Source: a virus. From it: 57,212 nucleotides of DNA. Location: positions 1 through 57,212 of the IMG/VR virus record IMGVR_UViG_3300017706_002546; one strand, 5' to 3'. The notes below the pieces were generated by a model. The model was not told the origin of the DNA, did not search any database, and saw only the letters and a list, made by a program, of their open reading frames with translations. The translations under genes were made by a program, and so were the position numbers. Below are positions 1,983 through 57,169 of the stretch, one piece after another; within the stretch, counting starts at the first letter, position 1, and each line of letters begins with the position of its first letter.

Positions 1983-1990
1983 TATTTATT
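1983..1990 (-). promoter_or_regulatory. Candidate T4-type late promoter of the capsid gene
   Basis: On the minus strand the gap between the scaffold and capsid genes reads AATAAATA, one base from the T4 late promoter TATAAATA, 28 bases upstream of the capsid ATG. A gp55-like sigma factor is encoded at 50865-51617, which makes a late promoter here plausible. The box overlaps the scaffold stop codon region and the DNA is A+T rich, so chance is possible. Confidence 0.35.
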
Positions 1991-3468
1991 TAGATACCCG
2001 CCAACTTTTGCCATCTGCTTAACTCATTGTTAACTGATGTTGCTGTTGATTGGGATGAAGTTGTTGCCCTAGAAGAGCTCCCTAAGATACGTGACTCAGA
2101 AAGCGTTCCTTTGCTAGAACCACGACTTAAAGTCTCAGTCAACGAAGTATATAATGATTTTGCTTCTGTTAAAGTAGCTGCCTCATCTAATGCTTTAATA
2201 ACTGATTTCTTTTGCGACTCAGACAAAGCTTTATTTTGAAGTAATTTGTTTACATACAAAAGCTTTGCATTAAATAAATTGAGATCTTCCAACTGTTCAC
2301 GAAGAGAATTAACAGCTCCTCTGTATTTGTTCAGTTTCTCTGACTGAGATCGATTCATGCGTCTCAGTTGGCGAATAGCCTCGTTAAGTTTGTTTATTTG
2401 AGGCGGGTTAACAAATGCATCTTGCCCTTCTTTACCACCACCAAATGCGCCGCTAACGCCAGCGTTTTGTTTTCCTTTACCACCGTAAGCACCGTCGACA
2501 CCAGCTTTTCCGCCGCCTTTACCACCGAAGTGGTGATCAACTTTGCCTTCACGCATGAGCCTTTTAGCTCTATTAATTTCTTGTCTTAAAATTCTTGGAT
2601 TAACATTATAAGCTTCTGCTAATGCCTCAATTTCTTCAGCCTCTTCAGGAGCTTCAGGTGCTGCATCTGGTAATTCAAATTCTTCTTCGCCACCAGCAGC
2701 TAATTCTTCACCGCCTTCACTGCCACCAACGTCTAATCCTAGCCCCATTAAGTCAGCTAGAAATTCTTCAACAGCTGCTTCAATTGCGCCTCTGTCGATA
2801 TTTTCGTCTTCTTCACCAGGTGCCCCTAAATCTTCCATAGGTTCTGCTTCAAGATCAGGCATTTCTGCTTCTTCTTCTTGCTCAAAGAGAGCAGCTAATT
2901 CTTTCATAAGCGCTGCTTCATCATCTTCACCTTCACTATAATCCATTTCATCATATGAAGCTTCTTCCATATGATCATCCATTTCATCAACAGCTTCCCT
3001 TAAAGTTCTAAGGTCAACTTCATAATATTTTCTAGACATTGCTTCTCCCTTTTTACTAGATAAATTATTTGCACTTTCACTAAGCCTGTGCGATAAATTT
3101 AACAGTTGATCTCTATCCTCATCGTCCATTGATGCAACTGCTCCTTTTATAGCACTAAAAAGTGCCGTTTTTGACTTAGACTCATTTAGAGAATCTAAAT
3201 TTTCTTCACCGATTAGCTCAGCCAAAGAAGCTAAAGCACTTTCATCTAAGTAAACTTCTTCTTCTAAGCTATTATCTTTTTCTTCTTTTTCTTCTTTTTC
3301 TTTATCACTATCTTTATCTTCATCGCCTGTTTCTTCTAATAACGATTCTTCAATAAATTCTCTAATTTGAGGCGTGATTGACTCAAGAATTGCTTTTTTT
3401 GCATTTTCTTCTGCTACTTCTTTAAGTTTTTTAGCGTCAGTAATTGCTTCTTCAAATAAATTGCTCAT
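1990..3468 (-). CDS. 22: Prohead core scaffolding protein (gp22-like)
   Basis: This 492-residue, very acidic protein probably builds the prohead core on which the capsid assembles and is then degraded by the gp21-type protease. It has an acidic N-terminal part with many potential (L/I)-x-E protease sites (residues 30-46 and later), a second acidic block (160-285), a glycine-rich linker with two copies of an AGV(D/S)GA(Y/F)GG motif (315-345), and a helical, coiled-coil-like C-terminal part (358-440) containing DLNLFNAKLLYVNKLLQ, which I recognise from gp22-type scaffolds. T4 gp22 is about 270 aa, so this one is nearly twice as long. Codons 140-144 form a strong ribosome site and ATG, suggesting a fusion or a second start. 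Its position directly before the capsid gene matches T4. Confidence 0.85.
   Translation of the reverse strand: MSNLFEEAITDAKKLKEVAEENAKKAILESITPQIREFIEESLLEETGDEDKDSDKEKEEKEEKDNSLEEEVYLDESALASLAELIGEENLDSLNESKSKTALFSAIKGAVASMDDEDRDQLLNLSHRLSESANNLSSKKGEAMSRKYYEVDLRTLREAVDEMDDHMEEASYDEMDYSEGEDDEAALMKELAALFEQEEEAEMPDLEAEPMEDLGAPGEEDENIDRGAIEAAVEEFLADLMGLGLDVGGSEGGEELAAGGEEEFELPDAAPEAPEEAEEIEALAEAYNVNPRILRQEINRAKRLMREGKVDHHFGGKGGGKAGVDGAYGGKGKQNAGVSGAFGGGKEGQDAFVNPPQINKLNEAIRQLRRMNRSQSEKLNKYRGAVNSLREQLEDLNLFNAKLLYVNKLLQNKALSESQKKSVIKALDEAATLTEAKSLYTSLTETLSRGSSKGTLSESRILGSSSRATTSSQSTATSVNNELSRWQKLAGI
3037..3051 (-). promoter_or_regulatory. Internal Shine-Dalgarno and ATG inside the scaffold gene
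   Basis: In frame within the scaffold gene, the minus strand reads AAGGGAG, six bases, then ATG (codon 144, A at position 3039). This is as strong as the start sites of neighbouring genes. It could give a 349-residue short scaffold, or be the relic of a separate downstream gene fused to the one before it. The residues just before the Met (KKGEA) are simply the translation of the ribosome site. Confidence 0.5.
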
Positions 3469-4152: not shown

Positions 4153-4636
4153 CTGACCCTTGAAATGATCTACCTGATATGTATGAGCTTAAAGTGTTTT
4201 GCTCAGATAAACGCTGCGATGTCTCAGAAGGGGAAACGAGACCTCCTAGTCCAGTACCCCATTGGTTTTTAAACTCTTTGTCAGGAATCTCACCAGAATA
4301 CTCTGGCTGATCTGCTGCATTAAAACTGCCGGGGCCAGGAGATGTTAAGTTAGGTGTGTAAGGAGTAGAAGGTAATCCACCGCCACCTGTTTCAACTTCT
4401 TCTAAGTTAGGTGCATCTACATAGTCACGATCAAAAGAGCTAAGACCGTTACCATTAAGTACGACGCCGTCTCTGCAAAGACTTTGGTGCGCCTTTTTTC
4501 TCTCAACATCAGATATCTCTTGTTTAAAAATAGGAGAGTCAGGAAAGGACGCTCTGAGGTTTACATCACTTCTCGAACCTTTTGATCTAGGTGTTGCAGG
4601 ATTAGGTATTACTATAATCTGTCTTTGATCTGGCAT
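4139..4636 (-). CDS. Hypothetical head-cluster protein
   Basis: This 165-residue protein has no family I can name. It is rich in Pro, Ser, Asn and Gly (for example GGGGLPSTPYTPNLTSPGPG near 83-102) and is probably mostly disordered. The start overlaps the previous stop as TAATG, and the AGGAGG that serves as its ribosome site is formed by the last Arg-Arg codons of the upstream gene, so the two are probably translationally coupled. Like its neighbour it lies between gp21 and gp22 and may be a head accessory or core protein. Confidence 0.8.
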   Translation of the reverse strand: MPDQRQIIVIPNPATPRSKGSRSDVNLRASFPDSPIFKQEISDVERKKAHQSLCRDGVVLNGNGLSSFDRDYVDAPNLEEVETGGGGLPSTPYTPNLTSPGPGSFNAADQPEYSGEIPDKEFKNQWGTGLGGLVSPSETSQRLSEQNTLSSYISGRSFQGSDGKS

Positions 4637-4854
4637 TATGGCCTCCTTTTATTTTTAATATACTTTTCTAAAACTTTGATGATTCTTTTGTTGTCTTCTT
4701 GCGCTGATATCGCTTCTTTGTACATGATAAAAGCTTCAAGAAGTTTTCTTTTTTCTTTGTTCTCTTCAAGATTTCTTTCTTGAATTAGCTTTTCTTTTTC
4801 TTCTGCGATAATCGCTTTTAATCTTCTTGATGTTAAACGCTTAATAGATGACAT
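4636..4854 (-). CDS. Small basic helical protein, possible prohead core component
   Basis: This 72-residue protein is highly charged (Lys, Arg, Glu) and predicted helical or coiled-coil throughout. Its size and place between the portal/protease and scaffold genes recall T4 gp67 and gp68, small prohead core proteins, but I see no specific sequence match. An I-A-E tripeptide near residue 16 fits the gp21 cleavage rule. I choose the ATG at 4854 (GGAGAG, then ACA, then ATG) over an in-frame upstream start at 4884, because the longer version would run through a transcription terminator stem. Confidence 0.75.
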   Translation of the reverse strand: MSSIKRLTSRRLKAIIAEEKEKLIQERNLEENKEKRKLLEAFIMYKEAISAQEDNKRIIKVLEKYIKNKRRP

Positions 4855-4864
4855 TGTTCTCTCC

Positions 4865-4898
4865 AAAAAAAATATCTGAACCACAACAGTTCAGATAT
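4865..4898 (-). terminator. Rho-independent terminator within the head cluster
   Basis: On the minus strand a perfect 10-bp stem (ATATCTGAAC paired with GTTCAGATAT, 7-base loop) is followed directly by a run of T. The opposite strand has no T run, so it should act only on leftward transcripts. It lies 30 bases after the stop of the 174-aa gene and before the scaffold and capsid genes, and its T run abuts the ribosome site of the next gene. Confidence 0.8.
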
Positions 4899-4927
4899 AA
4901 CTATTAAGAAAATTTATTTTTAACTAT

Positions 4928-5452
4928 CTATTTTCTTGACGAAGATGCAAAAGCTAGATTAGCCCAATTCGCAGAAGCGCCACCAAACAGATCACTTGGT
5001 TCACTTTGATCTACGATTTTTGCAGCTTGATCACCGCTAGCTTGCACGCTAGGACCGTTTGGCCTTGCGCCTTCTTTTTGTTCTCTCAAAGTTGTCATAG
5101 CAGTATCAGCTAGAATATCTGCCATAATATCATCTTTGGCTAAATGACTAACTTTTGATTTAATTTCGTCTTTTTCTGCGTGATAATCCCTCTTTTGATT
5201 ATCAATCCCCATTGTTATATTATCCAAGTATGACTTAGGTTTTTCAGTTTGTTTTCTTGACGAAACTCTAGATCTAGTAGAATTAATTTTTGTTTCAGAA
5301 ATTAATCGATCATTTGTTTCGTGCAATGTGCCTCTTAGCTCTCTTGACTCTTTAAGTGTTGCTTGTTTATTACCAACCAACCCCTCTGCTAAAATTTCAA
5401 TTAAGCACTCTTTTACAATCACTTTTAATGCTGATTTTGTCTTTTTATTCAT
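4928..5452 (-). CDS. Hypothetical head-cluster protein with possible capsid-targeting N-terminus
   Basis: I do not recognise this 174-residue protein. Its N-terminal 25 residues form an amphipathic helix that contains LIE and LAE (residues 17-22 area), both fitting the (L/I)-x-E consensus of T4-type prohead proteases; in T4, core and internal proteins carry such short cleaved targeting helices. The rest is polar and probably flexible. It starts two bases before the preceding protease stop ends (TAATATG arrangement) and is the last gene before a terminator. A packaged or core protein is a reasonable inference, not proven. Confidence 0.8.
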   Translation of the reverse strand: MNKKTKSALKVIVKECLIEILAEGLVGNKQATLKESRELRGTLHETNDRLISETKINSTRSRVSSRKQTEKPKSYLDNITMGIDNQKRDYHAEKDEIKSKVSHLAKDDIMADILADTAMTTLREQKEGARPNGPSVQASGDQAAKIVDQSEPSDLFGGASANWANLAFASSSRK

Positions 5453-5453
5453 A

Positions 5454-6056
5454 TTACCACCTCAGAATATCATTAAACATTCTATCAATTTTATCTGATT
5501 GGTTAAAAAATTTATCTAAATCTTTTCTTTGAATCTTATGTTCTTTTAGCATGAAAGCACCAGGTGTGGAAGGCTCAGAGACCATGTCAAAGCAAATTAA
5601 TTGAAAATCATCTTGGACAATCGAGTTGCCTCCTTTTGAAACAGTTGATCCTACACCTCTCGAACTGATACCGAGTGTAACTCCGCTTTCTATTAATGAT
5701 TGAATTATTTTCCCGCTAGGTGTATCAAGTATCTCAATCCTACCGTAAACATCGTCGTTTTGCATGTATGCCTCTCTAACAATATGAGAAACATTTTTCA
5801 ACTCAACAACAGAAGAGTCTGGATGGTCGCATTCGCCTAGCGCTCTATTTTCTTTAATGAGCTTTTGGTAGTTCATAACTTCTCTCTCAAGAATTGTTTT
5901 AGGGTATATTCTACCATTTTGGTTTAGTGTGTCTGCCCTTTGAATGATTCCTGATAGCATTATTTTTCCATCATATTGCTCTTTTGACTCTTTAATTAGT
6001 GAAGGCGAACATTTAATAGGTGTCCACTCTCTTAAAACTTGTATTTTTTCAGACAT
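5454..6056 (-). CDS. 21: Prohead core protease (T4 gp21-like)
   Basis: This 200-residue serine protease (peptidase S80 type, herpesvirus-assemblin fold) cleaves scaffold, capsid and core proteins during head maturation. Recognisable blocks are LSGIIQRADTLNQNGRIYP (34-52), GECDHPDSS (74-82) with the likely catalytic His78, and LGISSRGVGS (128-137) with the likely nucleophile Ser131 or Ser132. The length is close to T4 gp21. It starts by overlapping the stop of the upstream gene (ATAATG) and stands between the portal and scaffold genes as in T4. Confidence 0.95.
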   Translation of the reverse strand: MSEKIQVLREWTPIKCSPSLIKESKEQYDGKIMLSGIIQRADTLNQNGRIYPKTILEREVMNYQKLIKENRALGECDHPDSSVVELKNVSHIVREAYMQNDDVYGRIEILDTPSGKIIQSLIESGVTLGISSRGVGSTVSKGGNSIVQDDFQLICFDMVSEPSTPGAFMLKEHKIQRKDLDKFFNQSDKIDRMFNDILRW

Positions 6057-11002: not shown

Positions 11003-11253
11003 TTTATCTCCTCTGAGTTTAGCTTTTGCTTTAATAATATATAATCACGTAATTTAGTTTTTTCAGGACGCCACCCATTTTTCCAATCTACTCTTCTAGA
11101 TTCAGCAAATGTTAAGTAGCAGTCGTAACAACAATCATATTCTTTGCTTTTTTCAAAATCTTTCTGGGATAGCAATGGATAGCTACACAAGTCGCAATAA
11201 AATTTTTCATTTAGACTTCCATTAACTATCTTAATTTCACGGATAATAGACAT
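10993..11253 (-). CDS. Small zinc-finger-like protein
   Basis: This 86-residue protein has two CxxC pairs: CDLC near residue 21 and CYDC near 42, separated by 18 residues, which suggests one bound zinc. The following TFAESRRVDWKNGWRP-type segment is basic and could touch nucleic acid. The ATG at 11253 has AAAGGTG about nine bases upstream and is preferred over an in-frame start at 11298 inside the preceding gene. It overlaps the end of the Mre11-Rad50 gene by 17 bases. No function can be named. Confidence 0.75.
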   Translation of the reverse strand: MSIIREIKIVNGSLNEKFYCDLCSYPLLSQKDFEKSKEYDCCYDCYLTFAESRRVDWKNGWRPEKTKLRDYILLKQKLNSEEIKWD

Positions 11254-14200
11254 ATGAATCGACACCTTTTCTTTGTATATCAATCGTATTATCAACAATA
11301 TCTTTTATCTGGTCGATGTGAGATATTATCACAATATTTCTAAAGTATTTCTTTAACGATTGAAGTAGTTTACCACAAGATTCTAAGTTTGTTTCATCTA
11401 AAGCACCAAAACCTTCGTCAATCATAAGTATGTTTGTCTTAGGAAGAGTAGAGACATTAATTAGAGCGACTCTAATTGCCAAAGATGCCATCATCTTTTC
11501 CATGCCTGAACCTAACTCCACAATTCTTTTGCTATCCCCGTAATTAATGTATATATCCATCGCATTGCTTTCCAGATCTGCTTCTAGCTCAATTGTAAAA
11601 CCGACAATTCCTTTTAAGATTTTTGATATTTCTTTGTTGATATGAGGTAGCATTGAGTGGATTATTTGAACAGGTATTCCTCTACTTGAAGTTGCCTGTA
11701 TAAATAAATCATATATTTTCAAGTCTTTACTTAATATTTGATATTCTTTCTTTTGGCTAATCAAGATACCTAATTCAGCTTTAACTTTTGCTAAAGCTGT
11801 AATTAACTTTGTTTGTTCTTCGTTTAAGTGCTTAATTTCTCTCTTGATCTTGTCGACACGACTTTCAAGAATTTTGTACGTATCAGACTTGTCTTGATTT
11901 TCATAAAGTGCTAATAAAGACTCGTACTTTTCTTTTAAGTTAGGAAGTTTTTGCCTATTATTTTCTATATCTTTCTCACAAGAGTTAATTCTGACTTTAC
12001 TCTCAGAAATTTCATTAACCATCTGGGATCTTTTTATTACAACTGTGTTGTATTTCTCAATTTGCTCTTCGTAATCTACCTTGTTTAATTTTCTAAAAGC
12101 TACTTGTAGATCATCGATTTTTACTCTAAGCGAGTGTATTTTATCCTGCTGTTTTTCTAAATTTAGCTTGTTTTTGTGAGAGTTTTTTATAAACTTGCAT
12201 TTCGGAAATTTATCTCCACAAGGAACTTCGCTTAAGATACTAACTGACTTTTTAATTGTGTTAAGTTTGGAATTTTCTATTTTTAAATCAGACTTAAAAC
12301 CAATAATAATTCTTTCAATTTCTTTAACAGCATCTCTTTTTTCTTTAATGTCGTCCAAATTGAAACTATCAATAAAAGTCTCAATCTTTTGTAATTTTTG
12401 ATTTTTGTCAAATATCTCTTCATTTATTTTTTCAAGACTTAAAACGCTATTTTTAATTAGATTGCTAACACTTTTGTATTTTTCTCTTGACGTACTAAGA
12501 TCTGACTTAGTGACGTGGTCAATGTTTGTATTTTGGTGCAAATTTTTGACAGCTTCTTCATATAGTTTCCTTAAGCGAATCTCTTCTTTTTTATTACCAT
12601 CAATCTTTTCCTGGTTAGACTGTTCTTTATTCTTTGAATTTGATATTTCTTTATCCCAGTCGAGCTTTTTAAATGTTCCTATTTTTGACTTTAGCGTACT
12701 TGACTCTTTTTTTGCGTACTCATTAAGTTTGTCAAATACAGTCAAATCTAAAAAGTTAGATAAGATATTTTTTCTTGAAGTTGCTTTCTCTTTAATAAAC
12801 GTATTCATTTCGCCTTGTGAAGCTAAGCTTGTCATCATAAAAGATTCAACGTCGCCCAGTTTAGAGCGTATTATTTTTTCTGTTTCTCGTCTTTGTTCAT
12901 CTGTCAAATCTTCAATAACTTCTCCAGACTTATTAAGCTTGTAAAACTTAAGCGTTGTTGGAGCCCAAATTCCTTTCTTTGTTTGTTTTTTCACTGTCTG
13001 GCGAAATATTCTATACGGAACACCGTTTATAGTAATGTCAATTTCTGCCTTACAATTGTTGCGCCTTGTATTTACTATATGGAGGTTTTTAATACTACCC
13101 CTATCTGACGTATTAAAGAGCGAGTATGCAATTGTTCCAATTATTGATGATTTTCCTCTTGCATTTTGACCAAAAATTCCAGTAATCCCAGGTAAGTTTT
13201 CAAAATTTACCAAATTGTCTTCCCTGTAAGAAAAAGTATTTGAAAACTTGATTTTATTAATTGACCATTTTACATTTCTAACGTCATGATCTTTGTCTGT
13301 AATTTCTGACAGTGATCGATCAATCAATTCTTTGATTTGTGTTTTTTCTTCTTTTAACAATCCCTGGTTTTTGTAATAGTCATTAATTAATTCGTAATGT
13401 TTAGCTGGGTCTCTTAAATCAAGCTCGTTCTGAATTGACTCAGTTTTAAGAGTCTCAGATGAAAATTTAGATTCAATTTTAAACACAACTTCTGAAGCTA
13501 ATTTTTGCTTTTGGAGTATTTTCTGTATTTGTTTCGAATCTGCTTGACTTATATAGTTATCTGCTCTAATTCTAAATTTTGAGAGATTTGGGTATTCTTT
13601 GCATTTTGCAACTGTTTTTTTAACAGAGCCTTGCCAGTCGATTGTTACAAACGGATATGCATTTTTGACTGAATGAAAAGATACATCAAAATTATTTTTT
13701 GAACGAATGTCCCAAAACAAAAAACCTTTTTCACCATCTTCTCCAAAGTTTTGCTGAATTGTACTACCTGAGTATGCAATTGTTTTTTTCTCGTTTAAAA
13801 ACTGCATTTTATGAATATCACCTAACATTGCAAAATCATATGACTTAAATAAGTCAATATTATCTTCACCTTCTAGCTGCCAATCAACGTCAGTTAAACT
13901 ACCTCTAATAGCTCCGTGATAAAGACCAATGCTAATGTTTTTAGCATTTGGTTTTGCTTTAAACCAATTTTCTTCATCAAAGCAAGAAAGGACACACCAC
14001 TCAAAACCTGGCGCAAATTCGTAAGTACCTGACTTTTTATATAGAAAAATATTTGGGTTGTTTAAAGCGTTTATTATTGGTGTAATTGCATCTTGTCTGT
14101 CTTTATTTAGTATTAAACCGTCGTGGTTACCGAGAATGACGTGGGTTGGTGCTATTTTTGCTAACTCATTAAACCACCAACATAGACATTGAATTAACTC

Positions 14201-14365
14201 TGGCGATATTCCTTGGGTTTTAGAATGGACAATATCGCCACCTAAATAAATAATATCAGGCTGCAACCTTGTTGCTTTTTCAAACATATCTTTAAAAGCC
14301 AAAATATATTCTTCGTGGCGAGACAAACCTCTCCAATGAATATCGGCAATGTGCAATATTTTCAT
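11237..14365 (-). CDS. Single-chain Mre11-Rad50 (SbcD-SbcC, gp47-gp46) recombination nuclease
   Basis: This 1042-residue protein joins both subunits of the end-processing nuclease. Residues 1-300 are an Mre11/SbcD metallophosphoesterase with DIH (Asp8, His10), GGD (Asp44), GNHD (79-82), H150 and GDIH (182-185). Residues 365-1042 are a Rad50/SbcC ABC ATPase: Walker A FGQNARGKSS (398-407), long coiled coils (550-700 and 730-880) around a hook-like pair Cys716/Cys723, signature ELGSGMEKMM (950-959), Walker B ILMIDEG (979-985) and switch His1016. In T4 these are separate genes 47 and 46; here one open frame covers both with no internal stop. It should resect ends for recombination-dependent replication and possibly degrade host DNA. 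Confidence 0.93.
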   Translation of the reverse strand: MKILHIADIHWRGLSRHEEYILAFKDMFEKATRLQPDIIYLGGDIVHSKTQGISPELIQCLCWWFNELAKIAPTHVILGNHDGLILNKDRQDAITPIINALNNPNIFLYKKSGTYEFAPGFEWCVLSCFDEENWFKAKPNAKNISIGLYHGAIRGSLTDVDWQLEGEDNIDLFKSYDFAMLGDIHKMQFLNEKKTIAYSGSTIQQNFGEDGEKGFLFWDIRSKNNFDVSFHSVKNAYPFVTIDWQGSVKKTVAKCKEYPNLSKFRIRADNYISQADSKQIQKILQKQKLASEVVFKIESKFSSETLKTESIQNELDLRDPAKHYELINDYYKNQGLLKEEKTQIKELIDRSLSEITDKDHDVRNVKWSINKIKFSNTFSYREDNLVNFENLPGITGIFGQNARGKSSIIGTIAYSLFNTSDRGSIKNLHIVNTRRNNCKAEIDITINGVPYRIFRQTVKKQTKKGIWAPTTLKFYKLNKSGEVIEDLTDEQRRETEKIIRSKLGDVESFMMTSLASQGEMNTFIKEKATSRKNILSNFLDLTVFDKLNEYAKKESSTLKSKIGTFKKLDWDKEISNSKNKEQSNQEKIDGNKKEEIRLRKLYEEAVKNLHQNTNIDHVTKSDLSTSREKYKSVSNLIKNSVLSLEKINEEIFDKNQKLQKIETFIDSFNLDDIKEKRDAVKEIERIIIGFKSDLKIENSKLNTIKKSVSILSEVPCGDKFPKCKFIKNSHKNKLNLEKQQDKIHSLRVKIDDLQVAFRKLNKVDYEEQIEKYNTVVIKRSQMVNEISESKVRINSCEKDIENNRQKLPNLKEKYESLLALYENQDKSDTYKILESRVDKIKREIKHLNEEQTKLITALAKVKAELGILISQKKEYQILSKDLKIYDLFIQATSSRGIPVQIIHSMLPHINKEISKILKGIVGFTIELEADLESNAMDIYINYGDSKRIVELGSGMEKMMASLAIRVALINVSTLPKTNILMIDEGFGALDETNLESCGKLLQSLKKYFRNIVIISHIDQIKDIVDNTIDIQRKGVDSYVYYP

Positions 14366-14375
14366 ATGATTTCCT

Positions 14376-15686
14376 TTATTTTAAGCTCATTTCTACAACT
14401 GAGTCGTGTTTATCAGGAGTAAAAGCAAGTTTCCTACCAGGACATAATACCCAGCATCTTTTAGTTTTACAAAGTGGAGGCTTAGGAGCTTCACCATCTG
14501 TGAATATAATGTAACCATCGTAATCAGCTTTGATTTTTCTATGAAATAGTTCAACTGACTCAAAACTAGTCCCACCCGATCTTGTTCTATATGGCTTACT
14601 TATTTTCTTGTTTCTTTTCCAAATATATTTGGATTTATCATCAACAGTTGTGTCAAAATGAAATATTGTGAATGTTGTTCTTTTTGCTAAGTCATTGAGT
14701 GTACTGAAAAAGAGCATAAGTTCAGCATTAGAAACAGATCCACTTTGATCGATATACACAGCAATATTTGAAGTTCTGCCAATCTTTCTACCTGGATGGA
14801 TATACGGGTATTTCCTATTAATCTTTTTAAATGTTCTGCTTTTATTGGCTCTTTGTTTTGTTCCGCAAAAGTAGCGCAATACTGTTTTCCAGTTAACTGT
14901 TTTTATTATTGACGACTTAAGTTTTTCTCTTGTTGGGCTAGAACAATTGCCCCAACCTCTATTCTCTTCAGCACGCTTTACAGCTTCTTCTAGTATTTCA
15001 TTGATTTTTGCGTTAACATAGTCTTCATCACCTTCTGTCAAATCGTCATCAAAGTGATGATCGAATCCGATTCCACCTTTGCCTTGGCAGGTTCCTTCTC
15101 CACCTTCTTTACACTCTCCAGACATTTCGCTTGGCGACGGAGACATTAATTCATTAATAGCATCAACTATATCATCGTTCTGTCTCAGTTGTTCCATATA
15201 CCATTCGGAAGTTTTATCACGAGGTAAAGAGGCAATAAAGTCAGAAAGCTTTTTTCTTTTTTCTTTAAACTCTTCAGGTAGAGATGCTGTCGCTTCTGTC
15301 TCTTTAAAAGCCTCACCTGGGATAAGCCCACCATCAGGTAGCTCTTTTTTAGGAATTGTGCTGTTAATTGCTAAATCAGTTGCTATATTCCAAACCAAAT
15401 GAGGGGTTTGTTTTCTAGACGAAATATGTTTATAAATAATATGATAACACTCATGCTTGAGCAATCCAAAAATTTGTAAAGTTGTTAGTGTTGCCAAAAA
15501 GTCTGGATTGTAATAGAGGACAATACTGCTGCCATCAAACCCAACGCCTGCTGTGGGTATTGAATTTGTTTCTACTTTTCGAAGAGACCTAATTATATCA
15601 GCAAAAAACGGTTCAACAAAAAGAAACTTAAAGAGAACTTCATCAAATTTTTCTTTGCTATAGCTATAAACTTTAAATTCTGTCAT
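14376..15686 (-). CDS. VWA-domain protein with zincin-like N-terminus (DUF2201-type)
   Basis: This 436-residue protein has an N-terminal metallopeptidase-like motif HECYH (78-82) followed by NIATDLAIN (100-108), as in the DUF2201 family, and a C-terminal von Willebrand A domain with the MIDAS motif DQSGS (313-317) and a later GGTSFE segment. A charged, Gly/Cys-containing linker separates them. Such proteins are usually paired with a MoxR ATPase, as here, and are thought to act as metal-dependent adaptors or chaperones; whether the zincin site is an active protease is unknown. I prefer the ATG at 15686 (GGGTGA five bases upstream) to a GTG at 15695 that overlaps the MoxR stop. Confidence 0.85.
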   Translation of the reverse strand: MTEFKVYSYSKEKFDEVLFKFLFVEPFFADIIRSLRKVETNSIPTAGVGFDGSSIVLYYNPDFLATLTTLQIFGLLKHECYHIIYKHISSRKQTPHLVWNIATDLAINSTIPKKELPDGGLIPGEAFKETEATASLPEEFKEKRKKLSDFIASLPRDKTSEWYMEQLRQNDDIVDAINELMSPSPSEMSGECKEGGEGTCQGKGGIGFDHHFDDDLTEGDEDYVNAKINEILEEAVKRAEENRGWGNCSSPTREKLKSSIIKTVNWKTVLRYFCGTKQRANKSRTFKKINRKYPYIHPGRKIGRTSNIAVYIDQSGSVSNAELMLFFSTLNDLAKRTTFTIFHFDTTVDDKSKYIWKRNKKISKPYRTRSGGTSFESVELFHRKIKADYDGYIIFTDGEAPKPPLCKTKRCWVLCPGRKLAFTPDKHDSVVEMSLK

Positions 15687-15691
15687 TAATT

Positions 15692-16753
15692 TCACCCATT
15701 GATAGTTGCGTTAACTTTTAATTGAACTTTTTTACCGATTAACTTATGAAAGAACCTAATATTGTCAACATGCTTTGTGTCTAGTATTAGATACATAAAG
15801 TTGACTAGCATTTCATCTGAGCATTTCTCAGCAAGCTTACAAGCTCTTTGAACCTGGTGAAATTCTAAGTCTTTCTTTTTTGCTAATGTTGCAATTTGCT
15901 TGAACAAGCTATTTTTTTTATCGTTAGATAGATTATCGATTAGCTTAGTAATTAAGCTCTCCTTACTGTACTTATCTAAAACGTCAGTTGCTGAAAAGCT
16001 TGTGTTGTAGTCTTTAAGAAAACTGGCAAAAGCAGTTGCTGTTGCCTCGCCAATAAAGCCTTTTGCAACAGAGAGGAGCAAAGAGTTATAATTGTCGCCA
16101 AGCATATTCATTGGTTTCATATTTGCATATGACAAACTCTGAGAAAGCCTGTGCCACGAAGCAGGATTAGGATAGACAACCCCTGGCGCAAACTCACCTG
16201 TGTGTCGAAGATGAGCAGGAAAACGCTCAATATACTCTATCAGTACATCATCAATTTCTTCTGATTTATGAGCCCATGCTAACCAATCAGAAGTCGTCGG
16301 ATTTAGATCCGACACATAAAATCTTCTAAGTAGAGCCGGATCCATTTCAGTAACTTGATAATCTGATCCTTCATTGACTGCTACATAAACTCGTGTTTCA
16401 GGGTGGAGGTGATTTCCATTTAACTCTCTATCCAAAACTAGCTGAAAAGCACATTGCTGAACTTCAACTGTTGCTCTATTTAACTCATCTAAAAATAAAA
16501 CAACAGGTTCGTTGCATGCACGAACAATCCAATCAACTGGAGCGAATCTTGTCACACTATCTATCAACTCTGGTAAACCAACAATATCACCTTCTGTCAT
16601 ATATGCGAGGCGCTTATCAAGAACTGGGTAGTTAAGTTTTTTAGCAATTTGGTGAACAATATGAGACTTACCAATTCCAGTAGGCCCTTTTGCAAGGACT
16701 GCGATATGAGGTGGTAAAGAAGATACCACATTGATGAATGTTTTAATATCCAT
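15692..16753 (-). CDS. MoxR-family AAA+ ATPase
   Basis: This 353-residue AAA+ ATPase has Walker A GPTGIGKS (23-30), Walker B VLFLDE (85-90), a sensor-1 Asn127 in VYVAVNEGS and an arginine-finger-like LLRRF (141-145). MoxR ATPases remodel or activate partner proteins and are typically encoded next to VWA-domain proteins; the VWA/zincin gene follows at once with overlapping stop and start signals, so the two very probably work as a complex. A TATAAT box lies 30 bp upstream. Confidence 0.9.
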   Translation of the reverse strand: MDIKTFINVVSSLPPHIAVLAKGPTGIGKSHIVHQIAKKLNYPVLDKRLAYMTEGDIVGLPELIDSVTRFAPVDWIVRACNEPVVLFLDELNRATVEVQQCAFQLVLDRELNGNHLHPETRVYVAVNEGSDYQVTEMDPALLRRFYVSDLNPTTSDWLAWAHKSEEIDDVLIEYIERFPAHLRHTGEFAPGVVYPNPASWHRLSQSLSYANMKPMNMLGDNYNSLLLSVAKGFIGEATATAFASFLKDYNTSFSATDVLDKYSKESLITKLIDNLSNDKKNSLFKQIATLAKKKDLEFHQVQRACKLAEKCSDEMLVNFMYLILDTKHVDNIRFFHKLIGKKVQLKVNATING

Positions 16754-17314: not shown

Positions 17315-17343
17315 ATTATAACATGTAATAAACAATATTGCAT
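17315..17343 (-). promoter_or_regulatory. Candidate promoter with overlapping inverted repeat
   Basis: Minus-strand ATGCAA, 17 bp, TATAAT; the -10 box is 29 bases before the ATG at 17286. The -10 region lies inside a perfect 7-bp inverted repeat (TTTATTA and TAATAAA, 17312-17332, 7-base loop) that could be an operator, although it is pure A+T. The -35 box overlaps the end of the Fic gene. Confidence 0.45.
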
Positions 17344-18626
17344 TAAATGAACTTTTTAATTTTTTTAAAGTTTGTATCCATCAAACTAGTTAAATTTGTG
17401 ATATAATCTTCACCTATCATATCATTTGTTTCTTTAAAATTAAAATCAAAATCTGATAATAACATTACCCTGCCTGATCTTCCATTTCCATCACAAAAAG
17501 GGTGAATCAATTCATAAACAACGTGTTTACTCCATGGATCTAGATTTAAATTAAAGAAGTTTTTAAGGTTGTCATATATCTCATACGGTTCAGAGTAAGG
17601 TACACCATTAGGTGAATTGTGTGCGTAGTTTCTGATTTCACCTGGGTTGCCTTTGTCCAAGCATCCGGCCATAAAACTATGAATAAACTTAGCTTTGTGT
17701 GGGTTGTCAATTTTACCACACTTAAAGCATGCAACCATACAGTCTACCTGGGATCGTAAATGATTGTTTTTTGTCATGTATTCAGTAGGATATCCTGACA
17801 TCAACATCCTAGCTGATTCTTTGCAATCATCGTATCTGACTTTGTTTTTCTCTATGCCGTTAGTCCTGTATAGAAAATCAGACATGTCTGTTATTAAGTT
17901 TTCAACTGGATCATTATCATATATCTCTTGCGCTTTTTCTAAGCAGTGCTTAGAAAATAATTTGTAGTCTTTGTTCTTAAGGCTTTTGCTAAAATTAGTT
18001 TTATCCTCTTTTAAAAACGAAGAAGCTAGTGATTCACCGACTAGCCTGCCATATTGCACATCTGTTGGATAATGAACAGCATTTTCTATTCGAGATTGCC
18101 CAATAAGCGAAGCTAGTGTTTGCAAGTCTTGCTGTATTTCCGGAACATGATGTGATACAATATCGCACAAAAAGTAAGCAATTGCGGTGTGACCTGACGG
18201 GTAGCTTGACGATTTTTTATATTTTACATCTAATTCATGACGATTATCTATATGCTCAATTGGTCGCAATCTACCATTTTTAATTTTAAGTTTTAGAACA
18301 ATATTGTCAACATCCTTTAGTATATCTTCAATCTTTTTCCAGTCAATCTTTGTTATATTCTCTTGTTTGCAGTAATCTTTAAAAACACTTTCTACTGATT
18401 TGTCACTATCTCTGAGAAATGAAGTGGACAAACATGGCTGGTAATGACATCTTTCAACCTCAGACATGTCTTCATCAAATTCTTTGCTGCCTTCTCTGGG
18501 GTAATCCATGTGAGGAATTGTGTCAAATACGTTTTCGTCAAAGTATCTTAATCTTCTACTTAGGCGATCGTCATACTTACCTTTTTCACCCTTTGTTTCT
18601 TTAAATAGACATAAAATCGATTTCAT
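17343..18626 (-). CDS. PAP2 acid-phosphatase / Fic domain fusion protein
   Basis: This 427-residue protein combines two enzymes. The N-terminal half carries the complete PAP2 signature: K-x6-RP (Lys114 to Pro122), PSGH (143-146) and SR-x5-H-x3-D (Ser178, Arg179, His185, Asp189), the catalytic set of class A acid phosphatases and lipid phosphatases. It has no obvious membrane spans, so it is probably soluble. The C-terminal half has the exact Fic motif HPFCDGNGRSGR (375-386), preceded by GNPGEIRN (326-333) and a flap-like GVPYSEP (341-347). Fic domains transfer AMP, UMP, phosphate or phosphocholine to protein side chains. I find no [S/T]xxxE[G/N] inhibitory motif. The start overlaps the previous stop (TAATG). 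Its target is unknown. Confidence 0.9.
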   Translation of the reverse strand: MKSILCLFKETKGEKGKYDDRLSRRLRYFDENVFDTIPHMDYPREGSKEFDEDMSEVERCHYQPCLSTSFLRDSDKSVESVFKDYCKQENITKIDWKKIEDILKDVDNIVLKLKIKNGRLRPIEHIDNRHELDVKYKKSSSYPSGHTAIAYFLCDIVSHHVPEIQQDLQTLASLIGQSRIENAVHYPTDVQYGRLVGESLASSFLKEDKTNFSKSLKNKDYKLFSKHCLEKAQEIYDNDPVENLITDMSDFLYRTNGIEKNKVRYDDCKESARMLMSGYPTEYMTKNNHLRSQVDCMVACFKCGKIDNPHKAKFIHSFMAGCLDKGNPGEIRNYAHNSPNGVPYSEPYEIYDNLKNFFNLNLDPWSKHVVYELIHPFCDGNGRSGRVMLLSDFDFNFKETNDMIGEDYITNLTSLMDTNFKKIKKFI

Positions 18627-19249
18627 TAGCACTCATCATCATAAAAGTCATAATCTAATGAGTGATATACTTCGGATATGTCATCAGATATTTGTGCAAT
18701 CTTTGTGCGCTGCCAGTCATCTAATTCATAACCGTCTGGAATCATTTGTAAAAGTTTTTTTGCATATTTTGCGACTTTATACAGTGAAGGCTTAGCCATG
18801 TAATTGTTGTGCTTGTGATGATGCATTTTATCATCTTCAATTGCAGCTACCTCATAGCCTGCATCGAATGCTTGGTCAGGTGTAATGTTTGTGTTATTCA
18901 GATTGTTATAATCGCTGGTACTATGATTATTAGCAGGTCCGCAACTACTGCAACTTCCTTCGCTTACCACGCCTTCTTCCATATAACCACACTCACTGCA
19001 CTCACCCTCGTAAGTCATTCCACCACACTGCTCACAAGCTCCTGTTTGTCCGCCGCCAAAATCATCATAGCTATCACTTTGCTTCACCATCGTTAGATTA
19101 TGTGGAGATCTTGCATTAGGTCTAAAACCTGTGTCTCTGTATGAATCTGCTTGCGCAGAGCCTTTTGTGATAAGTGCTTCTTCACCTACCATCCTTGAAA
19201 TCTCTTGCATAATTAAATTGCGAAGCTCAGAATTTGTTAATTTGCTCAT
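18626..19249 (-). CDS. Zinc-ribbon protein with helical C-terminus
   Basis: This 207-residue protein has an N-terminal helix, a cysteine cluster of three CxxC pairs (CEQC, CSEC, CSSC, about residues 72-104) suggesting zinc ribbons, a His-rich patch (HHHKH, about 142) and a C-terminal helical segment (ELDDWQRTKIAQISDDISEV, about 175-194). The W-x-x-x-KI-x(5)-D pattern in that last segment resembles a helix found in virion proteins of other large marine T4-like phages; that link is from memory and uncertain. The gene is coupled by TAATG to the PAP2-Fic gene, so the two are made together. Confidence 0.8.
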   Translation of the reverse strand: MSKLTNSELRNLIMQEISRMVGEEALITKGSAQADSYRDTGFRPNARSPHNLTMVKQSDSYDDFGGGQTGACEQCGGMTYEGECSECGYMEEGVVSEGSCSSCGPANNHSTSDYNNLNNTNITPDQAFDAGYEVAAIEDDKMHHHKHNNYMAKPSLYKVAKYAKKLLQMIPDGYELDDWQRTKIAQISDDISEVYHSLDYDFYDDEC

Positions 19250-55816: not shown

Positions 55817-57169
55817 TTAGTATCGGTATGATTTATCTTTAAACGGGCCTTCTTTTTCCACGCCAATATACTTAGCTTGTTTGTCGTTTAAGTTTGTTAA
55901 GGATGCACCTAAGTGATTAAGATGTAATCTTGCAACTTCTTCGTCAAGCTTTTTAGGTAGAACATAAACTTTATCTTCGTATTTTTCAGAATCATTCCAC
56001 AGTTCAATTTGTGCTAAAACTTGGTTAGTAAAAGAACAAGACATTACAAAGCTTGGGTGCCCTGTTGCGCATCCTAAATTTACTAATCGACCTTGTGCCA
56101 ATAAAATAATATTTTTCTCTCTATGACCAAACTGTCTTGTGTCTTTAACTCTGTACATATCAACTAAAGGTTTAATGTTTGTTCTTTCACAATTTTCATT
56201 TAACCAAGCTACGTTAATCTCATTGTCAAAGTGGCCAATATTACATACAATTGCGTTATCTTTCATCCAACCAAAATGTTTTTGTGTAATCACATCGCAG
56301 TTTCCAGTTGCTGTTACAATAATGTCACCTTCGCAAACTGCGTCATCAATGTTCATGACTTGAAATCCATCCATGCAAGCTTGGAGAGCGCAAATAGGAT
56401 CAATTTCTGTCACAATAACACGACAGCCTGCTGACGCTAGTGAAGCGGCTGAACCTTTACCTACATCGCCATACCCAGCAACAACTGCTACTTTACCTGC
56501 CATCATAATGTCAGTCGCTCTTCGAATAGCGTCTACACAAGATTCTTTACAGCCATATTTGTTGTCAAACTTAGTTTTAGTAACTGAATCATTAACATTG
56601 ATTGCAGGTACTGGCAGCAAACCTTTTGCTTCGTATTCTTTAAGTCTTAAGACACCTGTTGTTGTTTCTTCTGATATTCCCACAATTCCGATATTAGAGA
56701 CGTTTTCATATTCAAAATAATCCTCATAGTTTTCTATTAAATGTTTTGTTAAATCCCCACCGTCATCTAAGACCATGTTAGGCCAAAAGCCATTTTTGTC
56801 ATTAATGACCGACTCTAGAGCTTGGTCATAATCTGCATCTGTCATGCCTTCCCAAGCAAAAACTGGAATTCCTTTGCTGGCAATGTAAGCAGCGGCATGA
56901 TCTTGTGTTGAATAGATGTTGCATGTCATCCATCTAACTTCCGCTCCTAAAGCTATTAAAGTGTCAATTAGCACTGCAGTTTGTATTGTCATGTGAAGAC
57001 AGCCAGCTATTCTTGCGCCTTTCAAAGGAAACTCTGCTTGTACTCCTGTGTTGTATTTTTGTATGACTGATTTTAAGCCGGGCATTTCATATTTTGCTAG
57101 CTCAACTTCTTTTCTTCCCCATTCTGATAAATTAATGTCAGCTACTTTGTAATCTGTAAAATTTTTCAT
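55817..57169 (-). CDS. ahcY: S-adenosyl-L-homocysteine hydrolase (adenosylhomocysteinase)
   Basis: This complete 450-residue enzyme splits S-adenosylhomocysteine, the inhibitory by-product of methyltransferases, into adenosine and homocysteine using bound NAD. All hallmarks are present: [16 protein letters not shown] (57-72), [10 protein letters not shown] (132-141), EETTTGV (167-173), [13 protein letters not shown] (191-203), the NAD loop GYGDVGKG (232-239), and the C-terminal [10 protein letters not shown] (441-450) with the conserved Lys and Tyr that reach into the neighbouring subunit. AGGAG seven bases before the ATG sets the start. It is its own transcription unit with a terminator and looks functional. 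It is an auxiliary metabolic gene in this phage. Confidence 0.97.

Follow-up and report, generated by a model that had tools for sequence, protein, structure and literature searches.

A virus of the T4 type, represented by a 57 kb IMG/VR virus record (IMGVR_UViG_3300017706_002546; "the window" below is this whole stretch of 57,212 nucleotides), encodes a single 427-aa chain that joins a complete PAP2 phosphatase domain to a complete Fic domain. The same full-length fusion was found in 19 other viral contigs. PAP2 and Fic together in a phage were not found in the literature searched, and the architecture is apparently undescribed, each of the two domain families being already known. On the grounds of sequence and of analogy, it is tentatively proposed that the protein is packaged in the virion and injected, and that it would act in the host as a self-restrained AMPylase and an independent phosphohydrolase in a role like that of T4 Alt, which serves here as the comparison for a packaged and injected enzyme (PMC2988021). 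The gene, its parts and its upstream neighbour are the following:

17343..18626, minus strand: PAP2-Fic fusion gene, 427 aa, with homologues in 19 other viral contigs
18591..18626, minus strand: candidate capsid targeting sequence, codons 1-12, MKSILCLFKETK, with hydrophobic residues at 4, 7 and 8 and Glu at 10, predicted disordered
18021..18293, minus strand: PAP2 domain, residues 112-202, class A acid-phosphatase type (Pfam match, family profile, Foldseek)
18261..18287, minus strand: PAP2 motif 1, K114-x6-R121P122
18189..18200, minus strand: PAP2 motif 2, PSGH, residues 143-146
18060..18095, minus strand: PAP2 motif 3, S178-R179-x5-H185-x3-D189
17367..17909, minus strand: Fic domain and its N-terminal inhibitory helix, about residues 240-420 (Pfam, AF2, Foldseek, profile)
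17847..17864, minus strand: class II inhibitory motif, T255-N-G-I-E259-K260
17469..17504, minus strand: Fic catalytic motif, H375PFCDGNGRSGR386
18626..19249, minus strand: upstream neighbour of 207 aa, of unknown family, with the N-terminus MSKLTNSELRNLIMQE, which resembles an LRxLIxE tag

The reading frame runs from an ATG at 18626 to a stop codon at 17343-17345, the ATG overlapping the stop codon of the 207-aa gene upstream. The record carries Gp23, the Gp20 portal and a Peptidase_S77 prohead protease, and the terminases of T4-like phages that infect cyanobacteria and Flavobacterium share 31-43% identity with its own. Other genes of the window were also noted. An AAA (MoxR-like) ATPase and a DUF2201 VWA/metallopeptidase-like protein form a pair at 14376-16753, near gene 46/47, that is conserved clade-wide; PHROG assigns the second gene of this pair to HNH endonucleases, at odds with Pfam. 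Positions 11237-14365 hold a single 1042-aa ORF, apparently a gene 47-like nuclease joined to a gene 46-like ATPase (51-64% identity in relatives), and an apparent S-adenosylhomocysteine hydrolase gene was read from the sequence at 55817-57169.

With the neighbouring MoxR-like ATPase as query 19 loci were recovered, 16 of which contain a full-length PAP2-Fic protein (34-53% identical), and a profile scan added three fusion contigs (L117, L119, and L123) together with a set of Fic-only relatives. In most of the loci inspected the fusion gene has an unchanged position, and in L092, L108, L119, and L123 it follows one shared protein of 199-217 aa, whose family is unknown. In loci L105, L106, and L109 the MoxR/vWA genes are present and the fusion is missing, and the PAP2-Fic gene is therefore accessory. 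Directly downstream of it, L108 alone among the relatives inspected encodes a 920-aa protein (L108:6714-9476, N-terminus MLINEELLKAIIKSKIEKKYLKE) without a Pfam match. Chance or an assembly chimera, considered as the origin of the fusion, was ruled out by its full-length recurrence.

Whether the fusion recurs, a question raised by the earlier note, is thus answered for viral contigs, and annotated phages and plasmids gave none: no full-length relative was detected by tblastn in 50,697 phage records or 72,556 plasmids, where the PAP2 half retrieved only PhoN/PhoC-type and other PAP2 enzymes and the Fic half matched at E 0.03 or worse. A profile scan of genome contigs gave no bacterial PAP2-Fic fusion among the matches listed, nor did BFVD give a match spanning both halves among the top matches listed. 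Mel-JY01 and immuto, the cultured phages with the most similar terminases among the matches listed, and T4 itself gave no match in a search run without a positive control, and scans with single proteins, run over viral and genome contigs, returned no relative because the peptides chosen are not conserved.

The presence of both domains in one chain of a T4-like phage, claimed in the earlier note from motifs alone, was confirmed by Pfam, by invariant motifs and by structure prediction. Both Pfam domains match in 16/16 family members (best E 2e-16 for PAP2 and 1e-10 for Fic); the window protein alone scores 43.1 bits for PAP2 (cut-off 27.2, E 4e-11) and 23.4 bits for Fic, just below the cut-off of 24 (E 1e-4). 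The motifs quoted at that time are exact (K114-x6-R121-P122, P143-S-G-H146, S178-R179-x5-H185-x3-D189 and H375-P-F-C-D379-G-N-G-R383-S-G-R386). The AF2 model made with the family alignment has a pLDDT of 87.6 and a pTM of 0.80, and in Foldseek it retrieved class A acid phosphatases and FICD. Both halves are under purifying selection, with dN/dS of about 0.07-0.35 for pairs that are not saturated. In a tree of Fic domains the fusions, all from uncultured viruses, form one clade (97/100) that adjoins Fic-only proteins of related phages and is separate from the sampled bacterial Fic domains.

The PAP2 half is a soluble PhoN-like class A fold and a predicted phosphatase, as judged from sequence and model. 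In the 16-row alignment K114, R121, and P122 of motif 1, the whole of PSGH, and R179, H185, and D189 of motif 3 are invariant. The fusion-family profile matched class A acid phosphatases of the PDB at E 1e-14, and the Foldseek matches to these enzymes had target TM-scores of about 0.6-0.69. The catalytic motifs and the soluble fold are thus those of the class A non-specific acid phosphatases (PhoN, PhoC, E. blattae AP; PF01569), whereas the latter are periplasmic, single-domain proteins and the phage protein has a C-terminal Fic domain and lacks a signal peptide (the N-terminus of the window protein is hydrophilic, with a KD19 maximum of -0.59 over the first 40 residues). No transmembrane segment was detected in the window protein (maximum KD19 0.72) or in the family (1.21). 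By its sequence, which has neither a transmembrane helix nor a signal peptide, PAP2-Fic is assigned to the cytoplasm, in contrast to the periplasmic PhoN.

Known Fic enzymes include toxins, secreted effectors and regulators of chaperones. The Fic half matches CdFIC (2e-10) and FICD (1e-7) in profile comparisons, and the AF2 model matched FICD in Foldseek at E 5e-5. Its HxFx[DE]GNGRxxR motif is invariant in the 16-row fusion alignment and in 20 Fic halves; H375, P376, F377, D379-R383, G385, and R386 are invariant in the former, and so are G329, R332, and H336 of a Fic fold in which the flap is present. The earlier note had seen no inhibitory motif and had concluded that the enzyme is active when made; this did not hold, as T255-N-G-I-E259 is present and E259, invariant in 16 fusions and four aligned Fic-only relatives, aligns with Glu234 of FICD. 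In the profile alignment the family's [ST]NxIE falls on VAIEG of FICD and SNKIEG of CdFIC, and the aligned rows have S/T at -4 from the glutamate. In FICD and EfFIC this glutamate represses AMPylation, in that it keeps ATP from binding productively, and deAMPylation depends on it (PMC6826200, PMC6408439). Since E259 is present and invariant, the Fic half is predicted to be a class II enzyme, repressed or bifunctional, that would need a trigger. HPFxDGNGRxGR, the flap and the N-terminal inhibitory glutamate are common to it and the class II Fic AMPylases (FICD/HYPE, CdFIC; PF02661). It differs from them in the residue after the glutamate, K/R/F/L/S in most PAP2-Fic members and G/N, as in the class II enzymes, in some members only, and in the N-terminal partner, PAP2 in place of TPR.

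Fic relatives of related phages are standalone or fused to other partners:

L128:5941-6930: Fic with a NUDIX hydrolase
L131:4816-8316: Fic with a PolyA_pol/CCA-type nucleotidyltransferase
L129:4078-7110: Fic with LRV/HEAT repeats, a 1010-aa ORF flanked by homologues of the prohead protease and of the scaffold

To judge from their register, the first 10-12 residues most likely serve as a capsid targeting sequence. In the T4 sequence residues 4 and 7 serve targeting and residues 8 and 10 serve processing (PMC9026906). The window protein starts with MKSILCLFKET (I4, L7, F8, and E10); T4 IPII and IPIII start with MKTYQEFIAEA. The family motif is MxS[IL]xxLFxE[TS], with columns 3-4, 7-8, and 10-11 conserved and a variable linker after them, and residues 1-20 are predicted by AF2 to be disordered (pLDDT 45-55). 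T4 Alt (MELITELFDEDT) resembles the L092 member (MRSIQELFDETK), which agrees with Alt residues 2-10 at 6/9 positions, the top match among 2,776 ORFs. L107 and L108, seemingly truncated, show the [IL]xxLF motif when a GTG is taken as start codon, preceded by a purine-rich sequence resembling a ribosome site (VPIPISKLFSEN and VPIPINNLFDDE). The strict register was found in 11/17 family N-termini and in 23 of the 2,776 ORFs overall, the family counted in, figures in which only the rarity elsewhere is independent evidence, the motif having been read off the family first, which makes the expression partly circular. The motif is also short; F8-K9-E10 of the window protein is F-x-E where the strict cleavage rule is L/I-x-E, and E10 is absent in L091, L099, L100, and L101.

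Head genes of the window, some of them with the tag, are the following:

5454..6056, minus strand: prohead core protein serine protease, gp21-like (Pfam Peptidase_S77, E 1e-27; PHROG head maturation protease)
4636..5452, minus strand: two small genes, 4636-4884 and 4928-5452, with tagged N-termini, separating the protease from the scaffold candidate
1990..3468, minus strand: candidate scaffold gene in the gp22 position, between the protease and Gp23 (PF07068), with the tag-matching N-terminus MSNLFEEA and no family match in Pfam or PHROG

The gp21-like protease is presumably the enzyme that removes capsid targeting sequences, and the two small genes lie in a position comparable to that of the T4 head-core genes. 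The tag expression matches 4/43 ORFs of the window, namely PAP2-Fic, these two small genes and the scaffold candidate, a marginal excess (1.4 in shuffled sequences, with 24/500 shuffles as high). The Fic-only relatives L126 and L127 carry MRITRKNLRKIILE-type tags, as MKITRRQLRKLIxE. In a relative of 202 kb (G005; pieces L282-L292) an LRxLIxE-type tag stands at the start of 40/261 predicted proteins (about 15%), mostly as MKITRRQLRKLIxE, and 2.6% of internal segments match the expression. As far as their N-termini tell, these proteins may make up a very large repertoire that is targeted to the capsid and injected.

From these features the following course can be proposed, tentatively. The N-terminal tag would bring PAP2-Fic into the prohead core, where the gp21-like protease may trim it, and the enzyme would be ejected with the DNA, like T4 Alt. 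In the host the Fic half, a putative class II protein-AMPylase restrained by its own E259, would put AMP (or another NMP) on a hydroxyl of a host protein; the PAP2 half, a phosphohydrolase of the class A acid-phosphatase kind with a presumed metal-free phosphohistidine mechanism, would independently take phosphate off a small phosphorylated molecule. Packaging is favoured because the register fits the T4 targeting and processing positions and because Fic relatives are tagged or lie in the head cluster. Counted against it are the location of the gene among replication genes, the missing E10 in four members and the lack of a T4-type late promoter excess (a search for late promoter words of the T4 and cyanophage types saw no enrichment). 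Alt and PAP2-Fic are likewise enzymes of a host-protein-modifying type with a near-identical N-terminal register; they differ in that their catalytic domains and chemistry are unrelated, the PAP2-Fic gene lies elsewhere in the genome and its packaging is a deduction. Polyvalent proteins of phages and plasmids likewise combine several unrelated enzyme domains per chain and are thought to be co-delivered with DNA (PMC5512222), whereas in PAP2-Fic Pfam found only PAP2 and Fic and no header, MPTase or protease domain; the main text of the paper on polyvalent proteins names neither of the two (Iyer et al., 2017; PMC5512222).

The main rival, plausible though somewhat doubtful, is an intracellular takeover enzyme: the pair would be made after infection from an early or middle gene and work in the cytoplasm like T4 ModA/ModB, with the N-terminal motif as a docking peptide unconnected with packaging. 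The gene indeed lies outside the head cluster, between a primase/RuvC-like pair and the MoxR/vWA and 46/47 genes, and the fusion is missing from three loci that keep its neighbours; accessory takeover genes are often patchy among relatives. The N-terminal register with its resemblance to the Alt targeting sequence, and the Fic relatives that are tagged or in the head cluster, speak for packaging instead.

It is unlikely that the two halves work as a single reaction unit, in which PAP2 would hydrolyse the pyrophosphate released by Fic (or supply or destroy the donor) and so drive AMPylation, or would reverse the modification. Such a unit would agree with the fixed order of the halves in one chain and one clade, and with the fusion of another Fic relative to NUDIX, likewise a phosphohydrolase. 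Yet Fic relatives occur alone or with non-hydrolase partners, so that Fic catalysis does not depend on PAP2, and Fic enzymes deAMPylate through their own glutamate (PMC6408439, PMC6826200). The earlier note suggested that PAP2 could remove the Fic tag; no evidence for this was found, and the same two observations weigh against it.

A counter-defence function, in which PAP2 and/or Fic would inactivate a host nucleotide signal or defence protein, is very improbable, though T4 injects internal proteins, IPI for one, that counter host defences (PMC3012670) and the fusion is patchy in its presence. That the fusion is non-functional, through misassembly or as a degenerate Fic carried along, was given next to no weight: the sub-threshold Fic score of the window protein alone is set against the recurrence of the architecture in 19 further contigs, the invariance of the catalytic residues, the low dN/dS and the confidence of the model.

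Returning to the packaged and injected enzyme, a broader proposition, to be taken a shade more cautiously still, is that this clade packs and injects PAP2-Fic while sister lineages use Fic alone or with NUDIX, CCA-polymerase or LRV partners, that AMPylation would replace the ADP-ribosylation of Alt, and that dozens of other LRxLIxE-tagged proteins may be injected. If this is true, AMPylation would be added to the phage chemistries of the earliest host takeover. A conserved phage Fic enzyme that carries its own brake, is joined to a phosphatase and is probably virion-delivered would be a convenient system for finding a new host target, and the N-terminal tag may offer a sequence rule to predict injected proteins in uncultured T4-like phages.
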